A stretch of DNA of 32,977 nt from Bacilli bacterium (GTDB lineage: Bacteria > Bacillota_I > Bacilli_A > RF39 > UBA660), in NCBI GenBank assembly GCA_017938725.1, contig JAGBAW010000007.1, positions 1 to 32,977 of the forward strand, given 5' to 3'. Shown one piece after another: positions 8,828 to 32,977 of this stretch (its first letter is position 1; every line of letters begins with the position of its first letter). The position numbers and the translations under genes were made by a program. Under the pieces are notes generated by a model. It saw only the letters and a list, made by a program, of their open reading frames with translations. It ran no database searches and was not told where the DNA came from.

Positions 8828-9011
8828 TGAAAGGGGAAAATTCTATATATAATTTTTAAAATTTAGAGGTATTTTGTGCATATAGAGAGAATAATATATA
8901 TGAAAAATATGTAGTAAAAAAGTTCACGCGAATTTTGTAAGATTTTGTCTAAACTATTTAAAACATATTTTATTAGTGATTTAATATTTATTGTAAAAGG
9001 GAGGCTAAAAA

Positions 9012-9326
9012 ATGATCGATGTAGATGTTGAATTTACCAAAGGGGTTTTATTTGTTAGATTAAAAGGAGTTATAAATAAATCTAATGAATATGTAGCAAA
9101 AGAGAAAATATTTAATATAATAAAAAATGGGGGTATAAGATATCTAGTATTTAATACAGAACAGTTAGATATAACTTCAGATGTAACGCTATTTGATGAT
9201 TGTGAAAAACTTATTAAACAAAACGATGGTAAGATGCTTATATGTTGCTCAAATATGAAAGAGTTTGCTACTAGTTATGAACATGTAGAAAACGAACTAT
9301 TAGCACTTAATCTTTTAACCGCATGA
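9012..9326 (+). CDS. spoIIAA: SpoIIAA-like anti-sigma factor antagonist (STAS domain)
   Basis: In spore formers SpoIIAA frees sigma F from its inhibitor SpoIIAB in the forespore. It is reset when SpoIIAB phosphorylates one serine. This 104-residue protein has a STAS-like pattern: VLFVRLKGVI (12-21), YLVFNTEQLDITSDVTLF (44-61) and KMLICCS. Aligning LDITSDVTLF with the family's MDSSGLGVIL puts S56 at the phosphorylated position, but the Asp-Ser-Ser-Gly sequence itself is not conserved. A GGGAGG site precedes the ATG. The stop overlaps the sigF start (ATGA), so no SpoIIAB is encoded between them. A 0A-box-like TGTCTAA lies at 8946-8952, one base from TGNCGAA; this is weak evidence of Spo0A control. 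Assignment rests partly on gene order. Confidence 0.75.
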   Translation: MIDVDVEFTKGVLFVRLKGVINKSNEYVAKEKIFNIIKNGGIRYLVFNTEQLDITSDVTLFDDCEKLIKQNDGKMLICCSNMKEFATSYEHVENELLALNLLTA

Positions 9327-9985
9327 TTAAACTTACAAATGAAATGGTTGAATTACTAGATAATAAAGTATCTTACATAGTTAATAAATATTCACAAGGT
9401 TATAATAGGGAAGATTTGATTCAAGCAGGAAGGTTAGGAATACAAAAAGCAGCAGATAATTATAAAGAAGATTTTGGGGTAAAATTTTCTACATTTTGTG
9501 AAAAATATATTTTAGGAGAAATTTTAAAATATATCAGGGAAGATAAGAATATAAGAGTTAGTAGAGACTTTATTAGATTAAAAAAGAGAATAGATATATC
9601 AACAGAGCATTTCTTTATGCGTATGGGTAGAAGTCCTAGCATTTTAGAATTGTCAAAGCTTTTGGATGAGGATGAGAGGAAAATATCTGAAGTATTGGGA
9701 TTTGATCAAAATGTTAGAAGTATTGATATAAAAATAGACAATGATAGTGATCTGACTTTAGCAGATACAATTAAGGATGATGAAAAAGTTGATAAAATTG
9801 ATTTGATTAGCTTAAATGATGCCTTAAATGATTTAACAGATGAAGATAGACAGATAATAAAGCAAAGATATTACGATGGAAAAACACAAACAGAACTTGC
9901 AAGTGAAATGAATATATCACAAGTTAAAGTTTATAGAATGGAAAGAAGAATATTGGATGATTTAAATGATAAACTAGCAGCATAG
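9323..9985 (+). CDS. sigF: Sporulation sigma factor, sigma F-like
   Basis: Directs RNA polymerase to early forespore genes. Region 2 spans about 25-80: REDLIQAGRLGIQKAADNY, FGVKFSTFCEKYILGEI, RVSRD. Region 3 is about 83-140 (GRSPSILELSKLL). Region 4 is about 164-215, with the helix-turn-helix TQTELASEMNISQVKVYRM. These match sigma F/G factors of Bacillus. Placement after spoIIAA and before spoVA favours sigma F over sigma G. At 220 residues it is shorter than the roughly 255-residue Bacillus protein, mainly at the N-terminus. The ATG overlaps the spoIIAA stop by four bases, indicating coupled translation at near-equal amounts. The stop codon lies in a terminator hairpin. Confidence 0.88.
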   Translation: MIKLTNEMVELLDNKVSYIVNKYSQGYNREDLIQAGRLGIQKAADNYKEDFGVKFSTFCEKYILGEILKYIREDKNIRVSRDFIRLKKRIDISTEHFFMRMGRSPSILELSKLLDEDERKISEVLGFDQNVRSIDIKIDNDSDLTLADTIKDDEKVDKIDLISLNDALNDLTDEDRQIIKQRYYDGKTQTELASEMNISQVKVYRMERRILDDLNDKLAA

Positions 9986-10045: not shown

Positions 10046-10486
10046 ATGAATAAACAAAAGTATCAGCAGTTAACAAAAAAATACGCTCCTAAGGAAAATA
10101 AAGCAAAAAATATGGTAATTGCTTTTGTAATAGGAGGATTAGTAGGTTTACTTGGTCAATTTTTGGTAGATTTATATACTAGTTTTGATTCAATAAGCAA
10201 GGATGAAGCAACAAGTTTAATGATGGTAACATTGATATTCTTCTCTTGTTTATTTACTGCCTTAGGTTTTTTTGATCGATGGGTAGAAAAGGCAGGAGCC
10301 GGATTATTCGTACCTATTAGTGGATTTGCTCATGCAACTACAAGTAGTGCCCTTGAATATAAAAAAGAGGGTTTAGTAATGGGGATAGGATCTAATATAT
10401 TTAAATTATCAGGTAGTGTGATTTTATATGGCGTAGTTGCAGCTTATGTATTTGGAATAATTAGATTCGTATTTTTTGGAGGTTAG
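10046..10486 (+). CDS. spoVAC: Stage V sporulation protein AC
   Basis: Part of the SpoVA channel in the spore inner membrane that takes up dipicolinic acid during sporulation and releases it at germination. SpoVAC itself acts as a mechanosensitive channel in Bacillus. The 146 residues begin with a charged tail (QKYQQLTKKYAPKENKAKN) and contain about four membrane segments, with the family stretch GAGLFVPISGFAHATTSSA (about 85-103). The ribosome site is weak (GGTG). A possible sigma-G-type promoter, TGTATA (10000-10005) and AATAATA (10023-10029), is 17 bases apart but would leave almost no leader, so I give it little weight. A terminator upstream implies some separate promoter. Confidence 0.93.
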   Translation: MNKQKYQQLTKKYAPKENKAKNMVIAFVIGGLVGLLGQFLVDLYTSFDSISKDEATSLMMVTLIFFSCLFTALGFFDRWVEKAGAGLFVPISGFAHATTSSALEYKKEGLVMGIGSNIFKLSGSVILYGVVAAYVFGIIRFVFFGG

Positions 10487-10489
10487 GCT

Positions 10490-11476
10490 ATGAATATTAA
10501 ATTTGATAATGTTTATATTGAAAATGTTGCAACTGTCGCAGGACCATTTGTTATAGAAGGCCCATTAAATGACAAATTTGATAAGAAATTTAACGACTTT
10601 TATGATGGGGAAAAAACATTTGAACAATGTGAAATAAAAGAACTTATTGAAGCAGTTAAAATACTTCTAAAAAAGACAAATAAAAATGAGGAAGATATAG
10701 ATGTTGGAGTATCAGTTGATTTAATGAATCAACTTACCATATCTAATTTTGCATATTCAAGGTTAAATATACCATATTTGGGGATATATAATGCCTGCGC
10801 ATCTATGTGTGAAGCAATTTTACTTGCATCATCCATGATAGATGGAGGTAAAGTAAATAATGCAATATGTACAACTTCATCGCATAATATGACTGCAGAA
10901 AGACAGTTTAGAAATCCTGTCGAATATGGAGCACCTAAACCTAAAACTACAACATTTACAGTAACGGGTGCTACATCTATTATGCTTACAAATAATAAAA
11001 CCGATATAAAAGTAACAAGTGCAACAATAGGTAAAGTTATTGATATGGGTGTTATGAATGTCTTTGATATGGGTAGTGTAATGACACCAAGTGCAGCTTA
11101 TACGTTAAATGAACATTTGAAAAGTACAAATACTAAGGTTGATGATTATGATCTTATATTAACTGGTGATTTAGGAGTATATGGTAAGAAGATATTTAAA
11201 GAATATTGCAAGGAAGAATATGGAATAAATATAGGTGATAATTATGATGATTCCGCAACTAGAATATATGATTATAAAGAAAATATATATGCTGGAGGAT
11301 CAGGACCATCATGTTTACCGCTTGTTGTATATTCAGATATAATTCCAAAGATGAAATCAAGAAGTTTAAAAAAGGTATTATTAATAGCAACAGGAGCCCT
11401 TATGAGTCCAACTACATGTAATCAAAAACTTAGTATACCAAGTGTAAGTCATGCAATTTGTTTGGAGGTAATATAA
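10490..11476 (+). CDS. spoVAD: Stage V sporulation protein AD
   Basis: The soluble subunit of the SpoVA complex, with a thiolase-like fold, which binds dipicolinic acid and sits on the inner membrane of the spore. The 328 residues are the usual length. Conserved stretches include TVAGPFVIEGPL, LGIYNACASMCEAILLAS (thiolase-like active-site region with its Cys), TTSSHNMTAERQFRNPVEYG, and ATGALMSPTTCNQ near the C-terminus. It starts three bases after spoVAC, with GGAGG inside that gene's end, and is followed two bases later by spoVAE. The trio matches the minimal spoVAC-AD-AE set found in clostridia. Confidence 0.95.
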   Translation: MNIKFDNVYIENVATVAGPFVIEGPLNDKFDKKFNDFYDGEKTFEQCEIKELIEAVKILLKKTNKNEEDIDVGVSVDLMNQLTISNFAYSRLNIPYLGIYNACASMCEAILLASSMIDGGKVNNAICTTSSHNMTAERQFRNPVEYGAPKPKTTTFTVTGATSIMLTNNKTDIKVTSATIGKVIDMGVMNVFDMGSVMTPSAAYTLNEHLKSTNTKVDDYDLILTGDLGVYGKKIFKEYCKEEYGINIGDNYDDSATRIYDYKENIYAGGSGPSCLPLVVYSDIIPKMKSRSLKKVLLIATGALMSPTTCNQKLSIPSVSHAICLEVI

Positions 11477-11477
11477 T

Positions 11478-11828
11478 ATGATATATTTATATTCATTCTT
11501 ATTTGCTGGAATAGTTTGCTTAATAGGACAAATAATATTAGATAATACAAAACTACTTCCAGGGCATATAACTAGTTTATTTGTAGTAATAGGTGCAGCA
11601 CTAGATGTATTTTCTATATATGATTTTTTTGTAAATACTTTTGGAGCTGGAGCGGTTGTATGTATAACTAGCTTTGGACATTTACTAATTCATGGAGCAC
11701 TTTCAAAAGCTGCTTCATCTGGACTTCTAGGATTATTTACTGGTATGTTTTCTTTAACTGCAACAGGAATTACTGCGACAATAATATTTGCATTTATATT
11801 TACAATGATTTTTAAAGCAAGAGATTAA
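11478..11828 (+). CDS. spoVAE: Stage V sporulation protein AE (AEb type)
   Basis: A small membrane subunit of the spore dipicolinic acid channel. The 116 residues consist of about four hydrophobic segments, with PGHITSLFVVIGAALDVF and CITSFGHLLIHGALSKA as recognisable family regions. The latter echoes the SGFAHATTSSA stretch of SpoVAC, to which it is related. GGAGG lies before the ATG. It ends the operon: its TAA lies in the loop of a terminator hairpin. Genes spoVAA, spoVAB and spoVAF, present in Bacillus, are absent from this operon. Confidence 0.93.
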   Translation: MIYLYSFLFAGIVCLIGQIILDNTKLLPGHITSLFVVIGAALDVFSIYDFFVNTFGAGAVVCITSFGHLLIHGALSKAASSGLLGLFTGMFSLTATGITATIIFAFIFTMIFKARD

Positions 11829-16229: not shown

Positions 16230-16288
16230 AATGTTTAAAGGGGAATTTGAATTTATAAAGGATAATAATTATTTATGAGGTGTTATGT

Positions 16289-16886
16289 ATGCAAGATAAT
16301 TATTATAACGAAATAAAAAATGAACTAATAAATAATGAAGTATATAAAAAAGTAAAAGATTATAGTAAAAATAGAAAAGACTTAGAAACATATTATAATG
16401 TTGGTAAATTACTATATGATGCAGGTAAACATTATGGGGAAGGAATAATAAAAGAATATTCTAAAAAACTAGCAAGTGAGTTTGGCAAAAGATATAGTGT
16501 AAGAGTATTATATAAAATGATTAAGTATTATGAATTTATATCAAGTAATAAAGTGCCGACAGTGTCGGCACAATTAACGTGGAGTCATTATGATGAATTA
16601 TTAAAATTTAATGATATAAATAAAATTAATTATTATATAACTAGTTCCCATGAACAAAATCTATCAGTAAGAGAACTTAGAAGTAAAATTAAAAATAACA
16701 GAATTAAAAAAAGAATATATAGGACAAATAGAAACTTATATGAATTATATAGATAAAAATATAAAAACAATTAATCAAGATAAAACAATAGGAATAATAA
16801 TAGTAAAAAAAGAAAATAAATTCATAATGGAATATTGTTCAGATAAAAGAATATTTGAGGTACAATATGAACTAGTGAAAAACTGA
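16289..16886 (+). pseudogene. YhcG/DUF1016-type nuclease gene with central deletion
   Basis: The ATG at 16289 follows GAGGTG; an in-frame GTG at 16280 overlaps that site and is less likely. About 150 residues match the DUF1016 N-terminal domain: YYNVGKLLYDAGKHYGEGIIKEYSKKLASEFG, cited here in two parts (YYNVGKLLYDAGKHYGEG and the following helix), LYKMIKYYEFI and QLTWSHYDELL. The frame ends at 16756. The +1 frame then gives GQIETYMNYIDKN, KTIGIIIVKKENKFIMEY and a TGA at 16884-16886, which matches the end of such proteins. About 100 or more residues between, containing the PD-(D/E)xK catalytic core, are missing, so the product should lack nuclease activity. A CCGACAGTGTCGG palindrome lies at about 16557-16569. 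Confidence 0.8.
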
Positions 16887-17264: not shown

Positions 17265-18407
17265 ATGATAGAAGAAAAGTTAAAAGAATATGTTAGCGCG
17301 CTAGACAATACTGAATCCAAACGGTTTCTTAATCTGAAGAGAGAATTATTAAGCTTAAGTTTAAATGATAAGGAACTTGCAGCCTTACTTACATCTATTG
17401 AAGGACAAAGTAAGGAAATGAGTCAAAATATGATAAATAAATATTTAAGTAGTAAAGAGTTGGAAAAAGCTAAAGGCGATAAAGAAACTATTAGTAAAGT
17501 ATTTGGCGTAGATGTAAGTGAAGTGGAACATAGAAAGTTAAACAGTGGTAGGGATGTATTTGCTTTTTATGATTCTAATTATTCAAGAAAAAGAGTTTTA
17601 GAAAATCCAATAGAGGGAGAATCATTAATAGAGCAACTTAAAAGGATACAAAATGAAAATAAAGAATTTCAAGGCGCTAATGATTATAAATCAAATACTA
17701 ACGATATAATGAGGGATCAAGCAAATAAATTAGATTATGAATTACAGATGATTTATATAGATGATATTTATAATTATCAAATGATAATTGATGGTTTGAA
17801 TGAAGAAGAGAGAGTAGCTTTTGATTATTTATTAAAACAAAAAGATACTAAAAATATAAAATATATTAATATAGAAAATTGTTTTGCTTTAGATAGGGAA
17901 GGTAATATGATAGAGAGTTTTATTGATAAAGATACAAATAAGCCAAGAATAGAAAATCCTAGGAAATATAAATACCAGTTTAGTGAAATTGATAATGAAG
18001 AAGAGGTATATGATAATGATAAGACTAATACATATAATGAAAAAACTGAAACTATTGAAATAAGTTATGATGATTTAGAGGATATACCAGATTTAATAGA
18101 AGCGGAGTTACTTGATGTTTATGGTGCAAGTGTTAGCAAAGAACAAATTAAAGAGATTAGTAATAGTGTTATTAATTATTACAAGAATCCAGATCAAATG
18201 ATTTCTTTAAAAGAAAATCAAAGAGCATTTTATGAAAAATTTGTTAATATGCTTTCAGAAAAAATTGGACTAAAAAGAAGTCAAAATAAATCTAATCAAC
18301 AAGTTTTAAGAAATGATTTAAATACCAATGGTTTTAGCAGTACTATATTATTATCTATAGTTATAATAATAGTTTGTATAGTAATAGTAGCTTTAATGAT
18401 AAAATAA
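17265..18407 (+). CDS. Tail-anchored protein of unknown function
   Basis: Not recognised. The 380 residues are acidic and mostly helical, with no signal peptide and a single membrane segment at the very end (about 357-379, SSTILLSIVIIIVCIVIVALM), followed by a lone Lys. The bulk should therefore lie in the cytoplasm, held to the membrane by its tail, an uncommon topology in bacteria. A Glu/Asp-rich stretch (about 245-280, with DDLEDIPDLIEAELLDVYG) precedes a helical region before the anchor. GAGAGG precedes the ATG. The next gene begins 13 bases after its stop with its own ribosome site, so the two are one transcription unit and may work together. Confidence 0.6.
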   Translation: MIEEKLKEYVSALDNTESKRFLNLKRELLSLSLNDKELAALLTSIEGQSKEMSQNMINKYLSSKELEKAKGDKETISKVFGVDVSEVEHRKLNSGRDVFAFYDSNYSRKRVLENPIEGESLIEQLKRIQNENKEFQGANDYKSNTNDIMRDQANKLDYELQMIYIDDIYNYQMIIDGLNEEERVAFDYLLKQKDTKNIKYINIENCFALDREGNMIESFIDKDTNKPRIENPRKYKYQFSEIDNEEEVYDNDKTNTYNEKTETIEISYDDLEDIPDLIEAELLDVYGASVSKEQIKEISNSVINYYKNPDQMISLKENQRAFYEKFVNMLSEKIGLKRSQNKSNQQVLRNDLNTNGFSSTILLSIVIIIVCIVIVALMIK

Positions 18408-18420
18408 GGGAGAGATGAAA

Positions 18421-20034
18421 ATGATAAAAGAACATTCAAAAATTTTTAGTATTATTTTTACAATATTATTTGGAGGCATACTTTATTATCTTATGCTTCC
18501 ACCATTTAATATACATAGTTATTTATTTTGGGTATTTATATGTATATTAATTATAGTATTTTTTGTAATTTATTCATTATTAACAATACCCGCAAATATT
18601 ATTTATACAATAAAAGGTAAAAAGAAAAATAACAATTTAAAGAGTTATAAATTACTATTTGTTATTCCTATTATAATAGTAAGTATATTACTTGTTAATA
18701 TTATATTATCACCAGTATTTAATTCAAAATCATATTACAAGAGAATAGAAGTAAAAGATGATGCAAAGTTTACTGATGATGTTAAAGAGGTTGATTTTAA
18801 TAAAATTCCTCTATTAGATAAAGATTCTTCTGAAAAACTAGGGGATAGAACGATGGGCCAAATGAGTGAACTTGTTTCACAATTTGATGTATCAAATATG
18901 TATACTCAAATAAATTATAATGATAAGATTATTAGAGTAACGCCACTTGAATATAATGGAGTAATAAAATATTTTACTAATAGAAAAAATGGTGTAAAAG
19001 GTTATATCACAGTAGATTCAACAAATGGAGAGTCTAAACTAACTAAACTAGGTACAGGCATGAAATATATGCCATCTGCATTATTTAATGAAAATTTGTA
19101 TAGAAAACTTAGATTTTCTTATCCAACAGCTATATTTGAAGATATGGCATTTGAAATAGATAACGAAGGCAATCCTTATTTTGTCGCACCTATAATAAAA
19201 TATTCAGGAGTAGGACTTAAAAAAGATGTAGAAGCAGTTGTAATATTAGATCCTATTACTGGTAATTCTAAAAAATATGATGTTAAAGATGTACCAACAT
19301 GGGTAGATCATGTTTATCCTGCAAATTTAATAATCGAACAGGTTGATGATTGGGGACAATATAAAAATGGATTCTTTAATACAATATTTGGTCAAAAGGG
19401 TGTAGTACAAACTACAACTGGTTATAATTATGTTGTTATGAATGATGATGTATATTTATATACAGGTATTACATCTGTAATAAGTGATGAATCTAATATT
19501 GGATTTATACTTACTAATTTAAGAACAAAAGAAACTAAATTCTATAATGTCCCAGGAGCAGAGGAATATTCTGCAATGGATTCTGCAAAAGGACAAGTAC
19601 AACAAATGAATTATTCATCAACATTTCCTCTTCTTGTAAATCTAAATAATAAACCTACTTATTTAATATCTCTTAAAGATAATGCAGGACTTGTAAAAAT
19701 GTATGCATTTGTAGATGTTGAGGACTATCAAAAAGTAGTGGTAACAGATTCATCAAAAGGAATACAAAAAGCAGCTGAGAATTATTTGAATGATGTAGTA
19801 GATGATGAAAATATACATGAACTTAAAACAAAAGAAATAACTATTAAGACAATAAAAGAAGTAATAATTGACGGAAATACTTATTATTATATTACTGATA
19901 ATGATAATCAAAGATATAAGGTATCTATTAAAACTAATAAAAATTTATTACCATTTATAAATAATAATGATAAAGTAAGAATAGAATACGCAAAAGAAAG
20001 TGAAGTAATAACAATAAATGGCATAGAAAATTAG
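18421..20034 (+). CDS. Conserved multi-pass membrane protein with large outer domain
   Basis: About 537 residues. Three hydrophobic segments lie near the N-terminus (about 7-27, 34-57, 78-98), and then about 430 residues form a beta-rich soluble domain. Stretches such as GQMSELVSQFDVSNMYTQI, PLEYNGVIKYFTNRKNG and WVDHVYPANLIIEQ resemble a membrane protein family widespread in Firmicutes that carries no assigned function and is often misnamed. The final 60 residues look like a small beta-barrel (TIKTIKEVIIDGNTYYYIT). I chose the ATG at 18421, seven bases after GGGAGAG; the ATG at 18415 lies too close to it. It probably acts in the envelope. Confidence 0.65.
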   Translation: MIKEHSKIFSIIFTILFGGILYYLMLPPFNIHSYLFWVFICILIIVFFVIYSLLTIPANIIYTIKGKKKNNNLKSYKLLFVIPIIIVSILLVNIILSPVFNSKSYYKRIEVKDDAKFTDDVKEVDFNKIPLLDKDSSEKLGDRTMGQMSELVSQFDVSNMYTQINYNDKIIRVTPLEYNGVIKYFTNRKNGVKGYITVDSTNGESKLTKLGTGMKYMPSALFNENLYRKLRFSYPTAIFEDMAFEIDNEGNPYFVAPIIKYSGVGLKKDVEAVVILDPITGNSKKYDVKDVPTWVDHVYPANLIIEQVDDWGQYKNGFFNTIFGQKGVVQTTTGYNYVVMNDDVYLYTGITSVISDESNIGFILTNLRTKETKFYNVPGAEEYSAMDSAKGQVQQMNYSSTFPLLVNLNNKPTYLISLKDNAGLVKMYAFVDVEDYQKVVVTDSSKGIQKAAENYLNDVVDDENIHELKTKEITIKTIKEVIIDGNTYYYITDNDNQRYKVSIKTNKNLLPFINNNDKVRIEYAKESEVITINGIEN

Positions 20035-26550: not shown

Positions 26551-27144
26551 ATGAAAAAGTTATTGAATATACTTATATTTTTGTTTATTTTTTCATTATA
26601 TTTCATAACTTTTTTAATGATTTATGATAATTTTAGGGAAAGAAAACTAAATAGTCAAGAAAAGAATGCTTTAGAATTATTTGAGAAAAAAATTGATGAA
26701 AAAAAGCAAGTAGAAGAAAATCAAAGTGGATCATATACAATAAGTTATAACGGATATACGATACTTGGTACAATAGAGATACCTAAAGTAGGAATTAGTA
26801 CTGTAATATTAAAAGAACATACATATGCCGCTATGAATATAGGAGCAATTAAAACATATGGTGTTGACTTGAATGAAAAAGGTGGTTTTGTAATATCTGC
26901 TCATAATTTTAGAGGAAGAACACCATTTTTCTATCCTATTAGGCTATTAAAAGAGAATGATAAAATTATAATAACAGATAATAAAGGAAGAACAATGGAA
27001 TATCTTGTTTATTCTGTAAGCAGATATGTAAATCCAAATGATGTAAGTTACTTGCAAAAAACTGATGATTATCATGTTACTATTGTTACATGTGAAGATG
27101 GTGGGAAAAGTAGAATAGTTGTAAAGGCTCATATTATCGAATAA
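26551..27144 (+). CDS. Sortase-family transpeptidase
   Basis: A membrane-held cysteine transpeptidase that joins surface proteins or pilins to the wall or to one another. The 197 residues have one membrane segment (about 5-25), a charged stalk and the sortase fold with H118 in VISAHNFRG, C181 in TIVTCEDGG and R188 in KSRIV, the full catalytic triad. The sequence resembles class D/E-like sortases, but the class is uncertain. No LPxTG-type protein is in this window, so the substrates lie elsewhere. GGAGAGG precedes the ATG. Confidence 0.88.
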   Translation: MKKLLNILIFLFIFSLYFITFLMIYDNFRERKLNSQEKNALELFEKKIDEKKQVEENQSGSYTISYNGYTILGTIEIPKVGISTVILKEHTYAAMNIGAIKTYGVDLNEKGGFVISAHNFRGRTPFFYPIRLLKENDKIIITDNKGRTMEYLVYSVSRYVNPNDVSYLQKTDDYHVTIVTCEDGGKSRIVVKAHIIE

Positions 27145-27204
27145 TAGTTATTTTTATATATTTTCTAGTTAAATTAATATTTATATAGTATGAATTAAAT
27201 CAAT

Positions 27205-27232
27205 AAAAGCATCAATTTGCTTTTTTTTATTT
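27205..27232 (+). terminator. Terminator downstream of the sortase gene
   Basis: AAAAGCA (27205-27211) pairs with TGCTTTT (27218-27224) around TCAATT, followed by T. Confidence 0.82.
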
Positions 27233-27274
27233 CGATAATGTGGTATTATATAATAAAAGAATAGGAGGAATAGT

Positions 27275-29095
27275 ATGGATAATAAGCATTTAGATGATTA
27301 TGATGAAGATTTACCCTTTTCTCCTTATATTGATGACAGTAGTACAAAGCAGGATAATAAAAGTGAAGAAATTGAGAATATATTTACTATGAAAAACGAC
27401 TCAGGTTTAGATAATATTGAACAGGTAGATATAAATAATAAAAATATAGAACAGCAAGAAAATAATATTGAAAAATTAACCGAGGGAAAAAATTCATATA
27501 ATAATCTAGTATATAATGTAGATATAAAAAAGAATAAAGAAAAAAAATCTGGAAAAATATATAAAAAAATAAGGCTTTTACCAGTTATTTCATTTTTATT
27601 TGTATTTGGACTTGGTGTTTATATTTTTGTTAATAATGTTAAAGCTGATGTTATAAATTTAATAAAGATTGAAGAGAACTATAAAGTAGGATATATAAAT
27701 AATGATGGAGAAGTCATAGTAAAACCTAAATATCTATATGGAACTGATTATTATAATGGGTATGCAGTTGTTAAAAATTACAATAGTTTATATGGAATAC
27801 TAAATGGTAAAGGTAATACGAAAATAGCATTTGGAAATATTTTTTCAGCTGTTTTATATGGTGATAGATATATTGTTAGTAAATTTACTAATGAAGGACT
27901 AAAGATGGGCATATTAGATAAAAATTTATATGAGATAACCAGATTTAAATATGATAATATTTCATATTTAAAATCGGGGATATTTGTATTTAATAGAGAT
28001 GAAACCATGGGGATTATGAATAATGATGGTAAGGAAATATATACATATAAAGTAGATGAAGTAGATGATAGAAATATATCTATTGATGTATCCAATATAG
28101 ACGATGATTCAAATACTGATATATATGCTAAGGTAAAAGTAAATGCTTCTTCTACAATAATAAATACAAATACTGGTAAAGAAGTGTATAAATACACATT
28201 AGAAGATATAAATGTACTTGATAATAACGTTTTTTATATAAAGAATGAGCAAGGTAACAATAAATACTTTATTATAAAGGATGACAAAGTAGTATTTGAA
28301 AGCGAGGAATATAAAAGAGTTAGGATTGAAAATCTAAATTCTGATATAGCTATTGCAATAAAAGAGGATACCACTATTGACTATATTAATCTATTAACTA
28401 AGGAGAAAATAAATAGCAATGAAAATATAAAGTATACATATTCAGATGGTGTAATACTTGAAGAAAGCTATAATTTTAAAACTGATAAGAATGAATATAC
28501 TATTTTTACACCTACTAAAACATTAGGAGTATTTACAGATTTAAATCCATTAGATGATACATTTGTAAATGGATATATGAAAGTTAACACATCTAATAAT
28601 AAATATAATTTTGTAAATAAGAATGGTGAAAAAATATTAAAAAAAGAATATGATTTTGTAGATAACTTTAATAAATATGGATTTGCATTAGTACAAAATG
28701 ACAGTGAATATGGTGTTATTAATAAAAATGGTAAAGAAATAATAAATACTAAATATGAGGAAATATTAACCTTAGATGATGATTTATTTAATACTATTAA
28801 AAAAAGAAATAAACAAGAATTATTTATTTTTAAACAAAATAATAAATATGGTATAATTAATTCAAGTGGTAATGTTGTACTAAAAGCTATATATGATGAT
28901 TTTGTGGTAGTTACAGCAAAGTATCCAATAATAAAAGCTATATATAATAATGAAGCAGTTATAATAAATTTAGATACATTAAAAGAATTAACTATAAAAG
29001 TAACTAATGATGTACAAGTTTATGATAATTATATAATTTCATCAAATAGCTATTATAACTATAATGGTGATTTAATATATAATGTGGGAGGTTAA
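27275..29095 (+). CDS. WG-repeat membrane protein
   Basis: The 606 residues begin with a 95-residue acidic, polar cytoplasmic segment, then KKIR and one membrane helix (101-121, LLPVISFLFVFGLGVYIFVNN). The rest, outside the cell, is a chain of WG-type beta repeats (about 135-600) with motifs such as VGYINNDGEVIVKPKY, YGVINKNGKEIINTKYEE and YGIINSSGNVVLKAIYDDF. WG repeats occur in many bacterial proteins of unclear function and probably form a propeller-like or solenoid surface for binding. A TATAAT (27249-27254) and AGGAGG precede the ATG. The stop lies next to the pilin-like gene, whose ribosome site is inside this gene's end. Confidence 0.8.
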   Translation: MDNKHLDDYDEDLPFSPYIDDSSTKQDNKSEEIENIFTMKNDSGLDNIEQVDINNKNIEQQENNIEKLTEGKNSYNNLVYNVDIKKNKEKKSGKIYKKIRLLPVISFLFVFGLGVYIFVNNVKADVINLIKIEENYKVGYINNDGEVIVKPKYLYGTDYYNGYAVVKNYNSLYGILNGKGNTKIAFGNIFSAVLYGDRYIVSKFTNEGLKMGILDKNLYEITRFKYDNISYLKSGIFVFNRDETMGIMNNDGKEIYTYKVDEVDDRNISIDVSNIDDDSNTDIYAKVKVNASSTIINTNTGKEVYKYTLEDINVLDNNVFYIKNEQGNNKYFIIKDDKVVFESEEYKRVRIENLNSDIAIAIKEDTTIDYINLLTKEKINSNENIKYTYSDGVILEESYNFKTDKNEYTIFTPTKTLGVFTDLNPLDDTFVNGYMKVNTSNNKYNFVNKNGEKILKKEYDFVDNFNKYGFALVQNDSEYGVINKNGKEIINTKYEEILTLDDDLFNTIKKRNKQELFIFKQNNKYGIINSSGNVVLKAIYDDFVVVTAKYPIIKAIYNNEAVIINLDTLKELTIKVTNDVQVYDNYIISSNSYYNYNGDLIYNVGG

Positions 29096-29096
29096 T

Positions 29097-29945
29097 ATGA
29101 AAAAGGGTTATACTTTGATAGAAATATTAGCGGTTATAGCAATACTCGCTGTTATAGGCGCGATAGCATACCCAAAAATAGCTGATTTAATAGATATGTC
29201 AAAAATAAATGCATATAGTGCTGCAAGAAAAAATATTATAGAAAGTGCAAAACTTAAATATTTAGCTGATGTTAATTCAAATGTTGTTACTGAGTATAAG
29301 GTTGTTGATCTTATTGATGAGGGATATATAAGTAAAGATACAAAAAATCCTTTAACTAATGATGAATATAGTGATCAGACGAAGGTGGTAATAACAAAAG
29401 AAAATGGTAATATAAAGTATGATTATGTTGATGGAAATACTATATATGATGTAGTAAGTAAAAAGAATGATTCTGATGGTATTTATTTAGATAACAATGA
29501 GTATATTTATAGAGGAGAGAATGCTAAAAATTATACATCATTTAATGGTGAAATATATAGAATTATAAAAATAGATTCATATAGGAATACATATTTATTA
29601 AAAGAACAAGGTAATAATGAGATAAATAAAAATGATTTAAAAAATTATATAAATTCATATTATAATGATAATTATAGTGAAGAGTATAAAACAAAAATAA
29701 GCAAATTTGATATATTAGACTATGAAATGTACTTAAATAGCTTTATTGGTAATGAATCTTTTATAACAAATAATAGTAATATATGGGTAAATTATGGCTT
29801 AGAATATAAAATATTAAATAATGTTACAAATACACTAGAAGATAATGATAAAGCAAATGTTACATTTGTTTTAAAGCTAAATAATACTATAACAATAATA
29901 AATGGTAATGGCTCACAGTTAGACCCTTACATAATAGGTGAGTAA
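29097..29945 (+). CDS. Pilin-like protein with N-methylation motif
   Basis: The N-terminal MKKGYTLIEILAVIAILAVI is the prepilin signature: a short basic leader, Gly at the cleavage position, then a Tyr and the conserved Glu five residues after the cut, and a hydrophobic helix (about 8-27). The 282-residue mature protein is long for a pseudopilin. After the helix comes KIADLIDMSKINAYSAARKN, then a soluble domain with EYIYRGENAKNYTSFNGEIY and a Tyr/Asn-rich end. I start it at the ATG 29097, after GGGAGG in the upstream gene. No prepilin peptidase or ATPase is in the window. It probably forms an export-type fibre or surface protein. Confidence 0.8.
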   Translation: MKKGYTLIEILAVIAILAVIGAIAYPKIADLIDMSKINAYSAARKNIIESAKLKYLADVNSNVVTEYKVVDLIDEGYISKDTKNPLTNDEYSDQTKVVITKENGNIKYDYVDGNTIYDVVSKKNDSDGIYLDNNEYIYRGENAKNYTSFNGEIYRIIKIDSYRNTYLLKEQGNNEINKNDLKNYINSYYNDNYSEEYKTKISKFDILDYEMYLNSFIGNESFITNNSNIWVNYGLEYKILNNVTNTLEDNDKANVTFVLKLNNTITIINGNGSQLDPYIIGE

Positions 29946-30154: not shown

Positions 30155-30457
30155 ATGTCAAATAGAATTCAAATTAATTTGAAAGCATATGATCCAAGAA
30201 CAATTGATCAAGCTGCTAGTAAGATTGTTGAAACTGTTAAAAGAACAGGTTCTGAAGTAAGTGGGCCAATACCACTACCAACTAAAATTGAAAAAGTTAC
30301 AATCTTAAGAGCTGTTCACAAAGATAAAGATTCTCGTGAACAATTTGAAATGAGAACACATAAAAGACTAATTTGTATCAATAATCCTAGTAAAGACACA
30401 ATCGAGGCTTTAACTAGATTGGATTTACCTAGTGGTGTTGAAATAAATATTAAATAA
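30155..30457 (+). CDS. rpsJ: Small ribosomal subunit protein S10
   Basis: Part of the 30S subunit head, also the NusE partner in antitermination. The 100 residues start [20 protein letters not shown] and contain [20 protein letters not shown] and [10 protein letters not shown], all conserved. AAAGGAGG upstream of the ATG. First gene of the operon, with the usual order rpsJ-rplC-rplD-rplW-rplB. Confidence 0.98.
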
Positions 30458-30472
30458 TTATAGGAGGAAAAA

Positions 30473-31237
30473 ATGAAAAAAGGAATCTTAGGTCGTAAGA
30501 TCGGGATGACTCAGGTTTTTGCAAAAAATGGTAAATTGATTCCAGTGACTGTAATATCTGTTGAACCTAATGTTGTTTCACAAATTAAAACAAAAGAAAC
30601 AGATGGTTATGAAGCAATTCAATTAGCATTTGAAACAAAAAGAGAAAAACTTTCTAATAAACCACAGATGGGTCATCTAAAAAAAGCAAATACATCACCT
30701 AAGCGCTTCTTAAAAGAAATCAGAGGTGTTGACGTAAGTAACTATACTTTAGGTCAAGAAATTAAAGTTGATATCTTTACTGAAGGTGAAATGGTTGATG
30801 TAACAGGAACAAGCAAAGGTAAAGGTTATCAAGGAGTTATTAAACGTTATAACCAAAGTAGAGGTCCGATGGGACATGGTTCACAATATCATAGAGGCGT
30901 TGGTTCACTTGGTACTATGAGACCAATGCGTGTATTAAAAGGTAAAAAATTACCAGGACATATGGGAGCAAATACCGTAACAGTTCAAAACCTAGAGGTT
31001 GTTATGGTTGATCTTGAAAATAATGTAATATTAGTAAAAGGTAATGTTCCAGGTCCTAAAAAGTCTTTAGTTATAATCAAATCAGCTATTAAAAATGAAG
31101 GTGTAATAAAAGAAACTTTAGAATTAGTTTCATTTGAAGAACCTAAGGTTGAAGTAGAAGATACTACTATGGCTGAAGCTATAGCTGATGAAACAGTGAC
31201 TGAAGAAGTAATAGAAGAATCATCACAAGAAGCATAA
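30473..31237 (+). CDS. rplC: Large ribosomal subunit protein L3 with acidic tail
   Basis: Early assembly protein of the 50S subunit near the peptidyl-transferase centre. The 254 residues include the start [15 protein letters not shown], the loop [19 protein letters not shown] and [17 protein letters not shown]. The core matches the roughly 209-residue family up to about residue 210. The last about 45 residues form an extra tail, almost all Glu, Asp, Thr, Ala and Val (for example [28 protein letters not shown]). GGAGG precedes the ATG. Confidence 0.97.
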
Positions 31238-31281
31238 TTAATAACTTATTAAAATAAATTGTGATGAAAGGAGGAAGAAAT

Positions 31282-31908
31282 ATGCCTAAAATAGCTCTTT
31301 TAAATACAAAAGGTGAAAAAATTAAAGACATTAAGCTAAATGATGAAATATTTGGCATTGAACCAAATAATCAAACTATATATGATGCAGTTGTATTAAA
31401 AATGGCATCAGTAAGACAAGGAACTCACAAAGTTAAGACTAGAAGTGAAGTTTCAGGTGGTGGAAGAAAGCCATGGAGACAAAAAGGAACGGGTAATGCT
31501 CGTCAAGGATCAATCCGTGCACCACACTTTGTTGGTGGTGGAGTAGTATTTGGACCTACTACAGAAAGAAATTATACAAAGAAACAAAATAAGAAAGAAA
31601 GAAGATTAGCTTTAAAATCAGCTTTAACTTATAAAGCAAATGATAAGGAAATCATAGTTATTGAAAATTTAAAACTAGAAACACCTAAAACTAAGGATTT
31701 CAAGAAATTACTTGAAGATTTAAAAATTAATGGTAAAGCATTAATAGTTGTTAAAGAATTAACAGATAATTTAATATTAGCTTCTCGTAATTTAAGAGAT
31801 GTTAAAGTAATCGAAACTCATGAAATCAACACTTTTGATGTAATGAACTACACTAACTTGGTTCTTACTGAAGAAGCAGTTAAAATGCTTGAGGAGGTAC
31901 TAAAATAA
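31282..31908 (+). CDS. rplD: Large ribosomal subunit protein L4
   Basis: 50S protein that lines the peptide exit tunnel and, in well-studied bacteria, represses its own operon. The 208 residues include the tunnel-loop sequence [20 protein letters not shown] and [20 protein letters not shown] use the ATG at 31282, eight bases after AAAGGAGG; an earlier in-frame ATG lies before that site. The stop overlaps the rplW start by one base (TAATG). Confidence 0.97.
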
Positions 31909-32189
31909 TGATAGGAAATTATAGAGATGTAATTATTGCCCCTGTTATTACAGAAAAGAGTGCAAAAATAGCAGAAAAAGGCAATAAAATAGTATTTAAA
32001 GTTAGAAATGATGCTAATAAAGTTCAAATTAAACAAGCAGTAGAGAAAATATTTAATGTTAAAGTATTAAGAGTTAATACAATTAATGTTAAACCAAAAT
32101 ACAAAAGAGTTGGACGTTATGCAGGAACTACAAGTCGTTTTAAAAAAGCAATTGTAACATTAGCTCCTGGTAGTCAAATAGAATTATAA
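31908..32189 (+). CDS. rplW: Large ribosomal subunit protein L23
   Basis: 50S protein at the exit of the tunnel, the docking site for trigger factor and SRP. The 93 residues contain [16 protein letters not shown], then [20 protein letters not shown] and [17 protein letters not shown], a normal L23. It begins within the rplD stop, with GAGG upstream in rplD. Confidence 0.97.
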
Positions 32190-32204
32190 TAGGAGGTTTT
32201 AGAG

Positions 32205-32977
32205 ATGGCTATAAGACATTATAATCCAGTTACTCCTGGACAAAGAAAGAAAAGTACTTTAGTAAATGAAGAGCTAACTAAAACAGCTCCTGAGAAAAGT
32301 TTACTAAAAGCCCAAAATAAAAAGAGTGGGCGTAATAATCAAGGTAGAATAACAGTTAGGCATCAAGGTGGAGGTGCTAAAAGAAAATATCGTGTTATTG
32401 ATTTTAAAAGAAATAAATTTGATATTGAAGGAACTGTTGCATCTATTGAATATGATCCAAATAGAAGTGCTAATATAGCTTTAATTAACTATAGAGATGG
32501 TGAAAAAAGATATATAATAGCCCCAAAGGGATTAAAAGTAGGCATGAAAATAATATCTAGTGAAACTGCTGATATTAAGGTTGGTAATGCATTACCACTT
32601 ATGAGTATCCCAGTTGGTACTATAATACATAACATTGAAATGAGACCTGGTAAGGGTGGACAAATTGCAAGAAGTGCTGGACAAAGTGCACAAATTCTTG
32701 GAAGAGAAGAAAAATATGTTCTTGTGAGATTATCATCTGGTGAAACAAGAAAAATTTTAGGAACTTGCATTGCTACTATTGGTGAAGTTGGTAACGAAGA
32801 TTATTCATTAGTTAGACTTGGTAAAGCAGGAAGAACTAGATGGATGGGAATAAGACCTACAGTTCGTGGTTCTGTTATGAACCCTAATGACCATCCACAT
32901 GGTGGTGGTGAAGGTAGAGCTCCAGTTGGACGTAAACAACCTATGACTCCATGGGGTAAACCAGCACTTGGACTTAA
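32205..32977 (+). CDS. rplB: Large ribosomal subunit protein L2 (partial, cut by window end)
   Basis: 50S protein essential for subunit joining and peptidyl transfer. The frame begins at an ATG after AGGAGG and runs open to the end of the window, 257 codons of a usual 275 or so. It starts [20 protein letters not shown] and includes [59 protein letters not shown] (with the catalytically important His), and ends [14 protein letters not shown]. About 20 residues of the C-terminus are outside the window. Confidence 0.97.

Follow-up and report, generated by a model that had tools for sequence, protein, structure and literature searches.

Loss of the SpoIIAB kinase and erosion of the SpoIIAA phosphosite beside a retained sigF gene in a family of uncultured gut Bacilli

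In a family of uncultured gut Bacilli, the gene for the forespore sigma factor, sigF, is present without the partner-switch kinase SpoIIAB, as a preliminary description of a single locus had proposed: with the SpoIIAB model, a profile search found 0 of 37 family genomes above cut-off. We consider it probable that the partner switch has been dismantled in this lineage, leaving sigF behind a putative Spo0A-box promoter, together with a dispensable STAS protein that lacks the usual phosphosite and likely acts on sigma F. Textbooks give the partner switch as the reason why the spore programme starts in one daughter cell alone. A multi-genus gut lineage with sigF, SpoIIR and SpoIIGA and no such switch would have either a simpler compartment-specific sigma F or a second mechanism. 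One part of this picture is already known from a single clause in print, namely that spoIIAB and spoIIE are reduced or absent in RF39, for which spores with different regulation are predicted (PMC10868615, Microb Genom 2024). The main text of that paper does not discuss spoIIAA, the phosphosite, the operon or the 0A promoter, nor does it name spoIIAA and sigF under those names. Elsewhere, bacilli and clostridia that form spores are all listed as having spoIIAA, spoIIAB, spoIIE and sigF (PMC3533761, Table 3). We found no report, in the non-subscription literature searched, that the phosphosite is erased, that the STAS protein is remodelled or that its gene was repeatedly lost.

The window, by which we mean the whole stretch of 32,977 nucleotides analysed here, is contig C33 of a 1.07 Mb genome in 38 contigs that is 90% complete. 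On its forward strand it carries, in this order, the STAS gene, sigF, spoVAC, spoVAD and spoVAE. The STAS gene (9012..9326, 104 aa), preceded by the ribosome-binding site AGGGAGG (8998..9004), was assigned from its open reading frame, its domain match (PF01740, 23.4 bits) and alignments; its score of 24.6 bits with the SpoIIAA equivalog TIGR02886 is far under the cut-off of 114.75. The sigF gene (9323..9985, 220 aa) is nearest to the SigB/F/G and spore SigF models (TIGR02980, 155.9 bits; TIGR02885, 151.7 bits, the latter below its equivalog cut-off of 321.45), and the best PDB match of its product is the sigma F of 1L0O. What supports its identity as sigma F is that it is of the SigB/F/G type, is linked to spoVA and belongs to a lineage that has SpoIIR and SpoIIGA. 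The neighbouring genes are spoVAC (10046..10486; TIGR02838, 168.4 bits, above cut-off), spoVAD (10490..11476; NF006160, 383.6 bits, and TIGR02845, 372.4 bits, each slightly below cut-off) and spoVAE (11478..11828; TIGR02839, 125.1 bits, slightly below the cut-off of 131.1). As first described, the stop codon of the STAS gene and the start codon of sigF share the four bases ATGA (9323..9326), and no open reading frame separates the two genes, which leaves the operon without spoIIAB. The overlap alone says little, being one of a range of STAS-sigF spacings in family loci that lie mostly between -4 and +16 bases. SigF had also been called short at its N-terminus, and so it is; the shortness is not special to the lineage, given that class relatives with SpoIIAB share it (181-241 aa, as compared with 206-234 aa in the family).

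In order to place this locus among its relatives, we compared a family set of 37 genomes, comprising that of the window and its nearest 36, with class relatives outside the family, 8 of which, from five other families, were positive with the SpoIIAB model (E 1e-46 to 1e-55). Some class relatives belong to lineages with in-frame TGA in their reading frames, as in mollicutes. What is more, when the STAS alignment was run against named genomes, 200 relatives came up, 80 of which were fetched as loci with the pattern E[FY]xKG[IV]LF[VI]R; nearly all of these 80 come from uncultured Bacilli or Tenericutes metagenome bins, UBA660 and Ca. Pelethosoma among them. The family is thus probably UBA660 of the order RF39. 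The STAS protein was found in 31 of the 37 family genomes by profile search, and sigF lies directly 3' of its gene in 77 of the 80 loci, with metK in between in one (G008) and two running off the contig.

The preliminary description had left it undecided whether SpoIIAB is encoded elsewhere or whether the lineage does without it. Genome-wide searches for HATPase_c_2 and SpoIIAB gave no such anti-sigma gene, HATPase_c_2 having no match at all across the window's genome at its 90% completeness. In the family, the HATPase_c_2 matches are essentially open reading frames of about 300-860 aa, that is, of histidine-kinase or gyrase/MutL size, and the short TIGR01925 matches comprise one of 195 aa in G021 and a few others. 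A 140-aa piece in G035, considered as a candidate small HATPase protein, comes from a split histidine kinase, of which it makes up the second half, and lies beside a response regulator. The phosphatase is missing as well: no canonical SpoIIE occurs in the 37 genomes, and the one SpoIIE domain above cut-off, in G002, belongs to a 624-aa SpoIIE-HATPase fusion, a protein of another kind found in this single genome, while the weak hit from the window's genome (E 0.009) turned out to be a PP2C-like protein of 277 aa rather than SpoIIE. The G002 fusion (locus L062, G002:C23), with phosphatase and HATPase domain in one protein, is a curiosity in its own right, possibly a self-contained partner switch or possibly contamination. 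Sister families of the same class have both SpoIIAB and SpoIIE. In other words, the locus differs from a spoIIA operon in having no spoIIAB between the spoIIAA relative and sigF and no SpoIIE phosphatase in the genome; this arrangement without spoIIAB is family-wide (37 genomes), and the outcome that would have spoken for a conventional switch, spoIIAB and spoIIE elsewhere with conserved switch residues, was sought and not found. The rest of the pathway is retained, SpoIIR being present in 27 of 28 family genomes, Spo0A in 26 of 28 and SpoIIGA in 35 of 37. The sigma F inhibitor Fin, in turn, was above cut-off in 0 of 60 genomes.

The STAS protein itself has been remodelled. The column of the phosphorylatable serine holds Ser in 8 of 8 canonical relatives and in only 1 of 98 distinct family sequences; in the window, it reads Asp, because two residues have been deleted from the phosphosite loop in the window's genus. 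The remnant of the loop, ITSDVT (codons 54-59, 9171..9188 on the forward strand), is two residues shorter than the DSSG form, in line with the earlier statement that the Asp-Ser-Ser-Gly context is gone. Ser56, on the other hand, had been taken for the retained phospho-site serine and has to be given up as such, as it aligns with the Asp column of DSSG. Since the congeners show D, G, E, G, C and S at this position, S56 is not conserved, which holds even if a shift of the alignment by one position is allowed. A single family STAS protein (L148:6001-6339) has Ser in the phospho-site column, within D-S-T-G. Arg67, which is part of the interface of SpoIIAA with SpoIIE and of that with SpoIIAB (PMC11418112), is found in 8 of 8 canonical relatives and in 0 of 98 family sequences, and S59, G62, G66, F55, E21 and D23 are eroded too; residues of the fold, namely L14, L18, G20, D57, G60 and G76, are retained. 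The protein is therefore a SpoIIAA relative by its STAS fold and nearest similarity, lacking both the DSSG phosphoserine and the docking residue R67. Judging by these alignments, it is no longer phosphorylatable at the usual site.

That said, the STAS gene is not debris, as can be seen from its low dN/dS, its own invariant residues and a divergence that follows that of SigF. The best PDB profile matches of the family protein are the SpoIIAA structures 1auz and 1th8 (E 3e-19), and an AlphaFold model of the window protein (pLDDT 82.5) matches best the SpoIIAA of SpoIIAA-SpoIIAB complexes, with a TM-score of up to 0.87. Median dN/dS is 0.09 for STAS (145 pairs, which are not mutually independent) and 0.13 for SigF. 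The family-invariant residues, in window numbering, are E7, K10, G11, L13, F14, R16, G19, N48, G73 and E95, several of which are not conserved in canonical SpoIIAA. The invariance of the stretch E[FY]xKG[IV]LF[VI]R is in part an artefact of selection, since the same stretch served as the fetch pattern; it is likewise present in genomes found via sigF. Correlating distances with a cubic correction for those of SpoVAC, SpoVAD and SpoVAE, after dereplication and with a permutation test (a linear partial correlation was dropped because of saturation), we obtained a partial correlation of 0.51 between STAS and SigF (41 loci, permutation p 0.001), whereas the values of STAS versus each of SpoVAC, SpoVAD and SpoVAE were about 0.1. 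Such co-divergence is compatible with direct contact and also with shared constraint or joint recombination of operon neighbors.

Upstream of the STAS gene, 60-69 bases 5' of its start codon, lies a Spo0A box, TTTTGTCTAA (8943..8952, forward strand), that agrees with TTTTGTCGAA in 9 of 10 positions. Of the 88 family upstream regions, 66 contain the exact TTTTGTCGAA and 20 more a 9/10 match, with shuffles leading one to expect 0.3 exact occurrences, and the box keeps a near-constant distance from the STAS start. Within the window's genus, all 7 loci examined carry a TCTAA variant of the box. The 74 aligned upstream regions share a conserved block, TGTGCTAAATT, at +31 to +40 from the box; its form in the window, TGATTTAAT (8977..8985, forward strand, 31-40 bases 3' of the box), resembles an extended -10 element and may serve as a promoter. 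Among canonical relatives, 6 of 8 have the box or a one-mismatch form of it. The box is thus inherited, and for this reason its presence alone is no proof that transcriptional control has replaced the switch. What the comparison does show is that the Spo0A site was retained when the partner switch disappeared.

In four family genomes (G015, G020, G022 and G031), the STAS gene is absent and sigF is itself immediately preceded by one or two 0A boxes. In a tree of SigF and SpoIIGA, each of these genomes is sister to a STAS-bearing one, with bootstrap support of 80 to 99, and it follows that STAS was lost four separate times. With sigF kept in all four cases, the STAS protein cannot be indispensable. 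A STAS match in G032 that was flagged for a stop codon has a shorter C-terminus and no internal break. The repeated loss offers a test, in that relatives that have the STAS gene can be compared with those that lack it.

We propose the following course of events. Namely, in the ancestor of the family the SpoIIAB kinase and anti-sigma factor and the SpoIIE phosphatase would have been lost, and SpoIIAA would have lost its phosphorylatable serine together with the face on which kinase and phosphatase dock; the losses emerge from comparison with relatives, and their timing is what we infer. The sigF gene and the leftover STAS gene remain one unit behind a putative Spo0A-box promoter and, this box being retained, the supply of sigma F would be set by Spo0A~P. 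Sigma F presumably still drives spoIIR, and SpoIIR and SpoIIGA, the genes for which are present, would still signal to sigma E. The STAS protein, no longer an anti-anti-sigma factor, would most likely modulate sigma F independently of phosphorylation, perhaps by binding it directly. In its strongest form, in which a former reliever of an anti-sigma factor now regulates sigma F directly and independently of phosphorylation, in organisms forming spores without any partner switch, the proposal is one we put forward only tentatively. Spore formation in these uncultured organisms is itself a prediction. SigF may bear a trace of such changes at the position aligned with E149 of B. subtilis sigma F, the presumed counterpart of E156 in sigmaG. 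The aligned site holds Glu in 6 of 7 canonical sequences and in 15 of 91 family sequences, and Arg in the window; a change in this column would be consistent with release from SpoIIAB binding, although it is weak evidence if taken alone. In sigmaG, the E156K substitution makes the protein refractory to SpoIIAB (PMC3174212).

Could the missing genes simply have escaped assembly? The window's genome, at 90% completeness and in 38 contigs, indeed has neither Spo0A nor SpoIIGA, and since 7 of 7 congeners carry both, this is probably a matter of incompleteness. However, spoIIAB and spoIIE are absent from 37 genomes, many of them more than 93% complete, and STAS and sigF abut exactly where spoIIAB would be expected, so that an explanation by incomplete assemblies is refuted and has next to no credibility left. 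Decay of sporulation in the family, with spoIIAA-sigF as a relic being lost, is another possible account. The genomes are about 1 Mb in size, have lost spoIIAB, spoIIE and locally STAS, and include one (G012) without a match for sigF, SpoIIR or SpoIIGA. Yet low dN/dS, a precisely retained 0A box and near-universal SpoIIR, SpoIIGA and Spo0A indicate that selection maintains function in most members, and we hold general decay to be quite improbable.

Another idea is that the STAS protein has replaced SpoIIAB as a direct anti-sigma factor, retaining sigma F up to the point at which it is degraded or titrated in the forespore. The adjacency and mostly tight spacing of the two genes in 77 of 80 loci, the strong purifying selection on STAS, a co-divergence with SigF that roughly equals the one among SpoVA subunits and the new invariant residues E7, K10, G11, F14, R16 and E95 all fit such a role; the four lineages that independently lost STAS but kept sigF, and the metK gene separating the two in G008, do not, and we know of no STAS protein shown to bind a sigma factor directly. 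We regard it as possible and rather doubtful. Those same STAS-less lineages also weigh against an unrecognized anti-sigma factor unrelated to SpoIIAB, with STAS perhaps as its antagonist and the partner switch thereby in other hands, as do the loss of the phosphosite and kinase-docking residues from STAS and the failure to find HATPase_c_2 anti-sigma genes or Fin. In its favor, sigma F requires some control in the pre-divisional cell, and the family genomes hold many uncharacterized genes, so that an unrelated or highly divergent anti-sigma factor encoded elsewhere is possible; as an account of the whole, we deem this arrangement unlikely. The dismantled switch, with sigF behind its putative Spo0A-box promoter, is the reading that we prefer.

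It is instructive to set this reading against known systems. As in the Bacillus and Clostridium spoIIA switch, a SpoIIAA relative by sequence and fold stands before sigF, with a 0A box 5' and spoVA genes 3'; unlike there, the family has neither SpoIIAB, SpoIIE, the phosphoserine nor the docking residues, and has lost STAS in four lineages. With RsbV/RsbW/RsbU and other HATPase_c_2 switches it shares the STAS fold and a sigma factor of the SigB/F/G group, but it has no kinase or phosphatase, and no phosphorylatable residue is conserved at the site. CsfB (Gin) and Fin, two forespore anti-sigma factors that are not kinases and are unrelated to STAS, serve as precedents for kinase-free control of forespore sigma factors (PMC3174212).

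Chromosomal position was considered as well. In each genome with both genes on one contig, spoIIR lies about 15-36 kb from dnaA; sigF is on a separate contig in the compared genomes, and this distance cannot place it relative to the origin. In the window, a ribosomal S10-type operon (30155-32975), with the order rpsJ, rplC, rplD, rplW, rplB as judged by eye, lies about 20 kb from sigF. Operons of this type are often close to the replication origin, and such nearness could matter for the dosage of sigF at septation. The window also contains consecutive genes for a sortase, a protein with WG repeats and one bearing a type IV pilin-like N-methylation motif (26551-29945), possibly a surface-structure cluster; a 380-aa protein that has no Pfam match, with a predicted membrane protein of 539 aa after it (17265-20034); and a DUF1016_N protein of just 158 aa (16280-16756), apparently without the remainder of the family's normal length. 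Finally, a 304-aa protein on the reverse strand (521-1435), the sole match of which is to sigma-70 region 4, is possibly an unusual sigma-like regulator.
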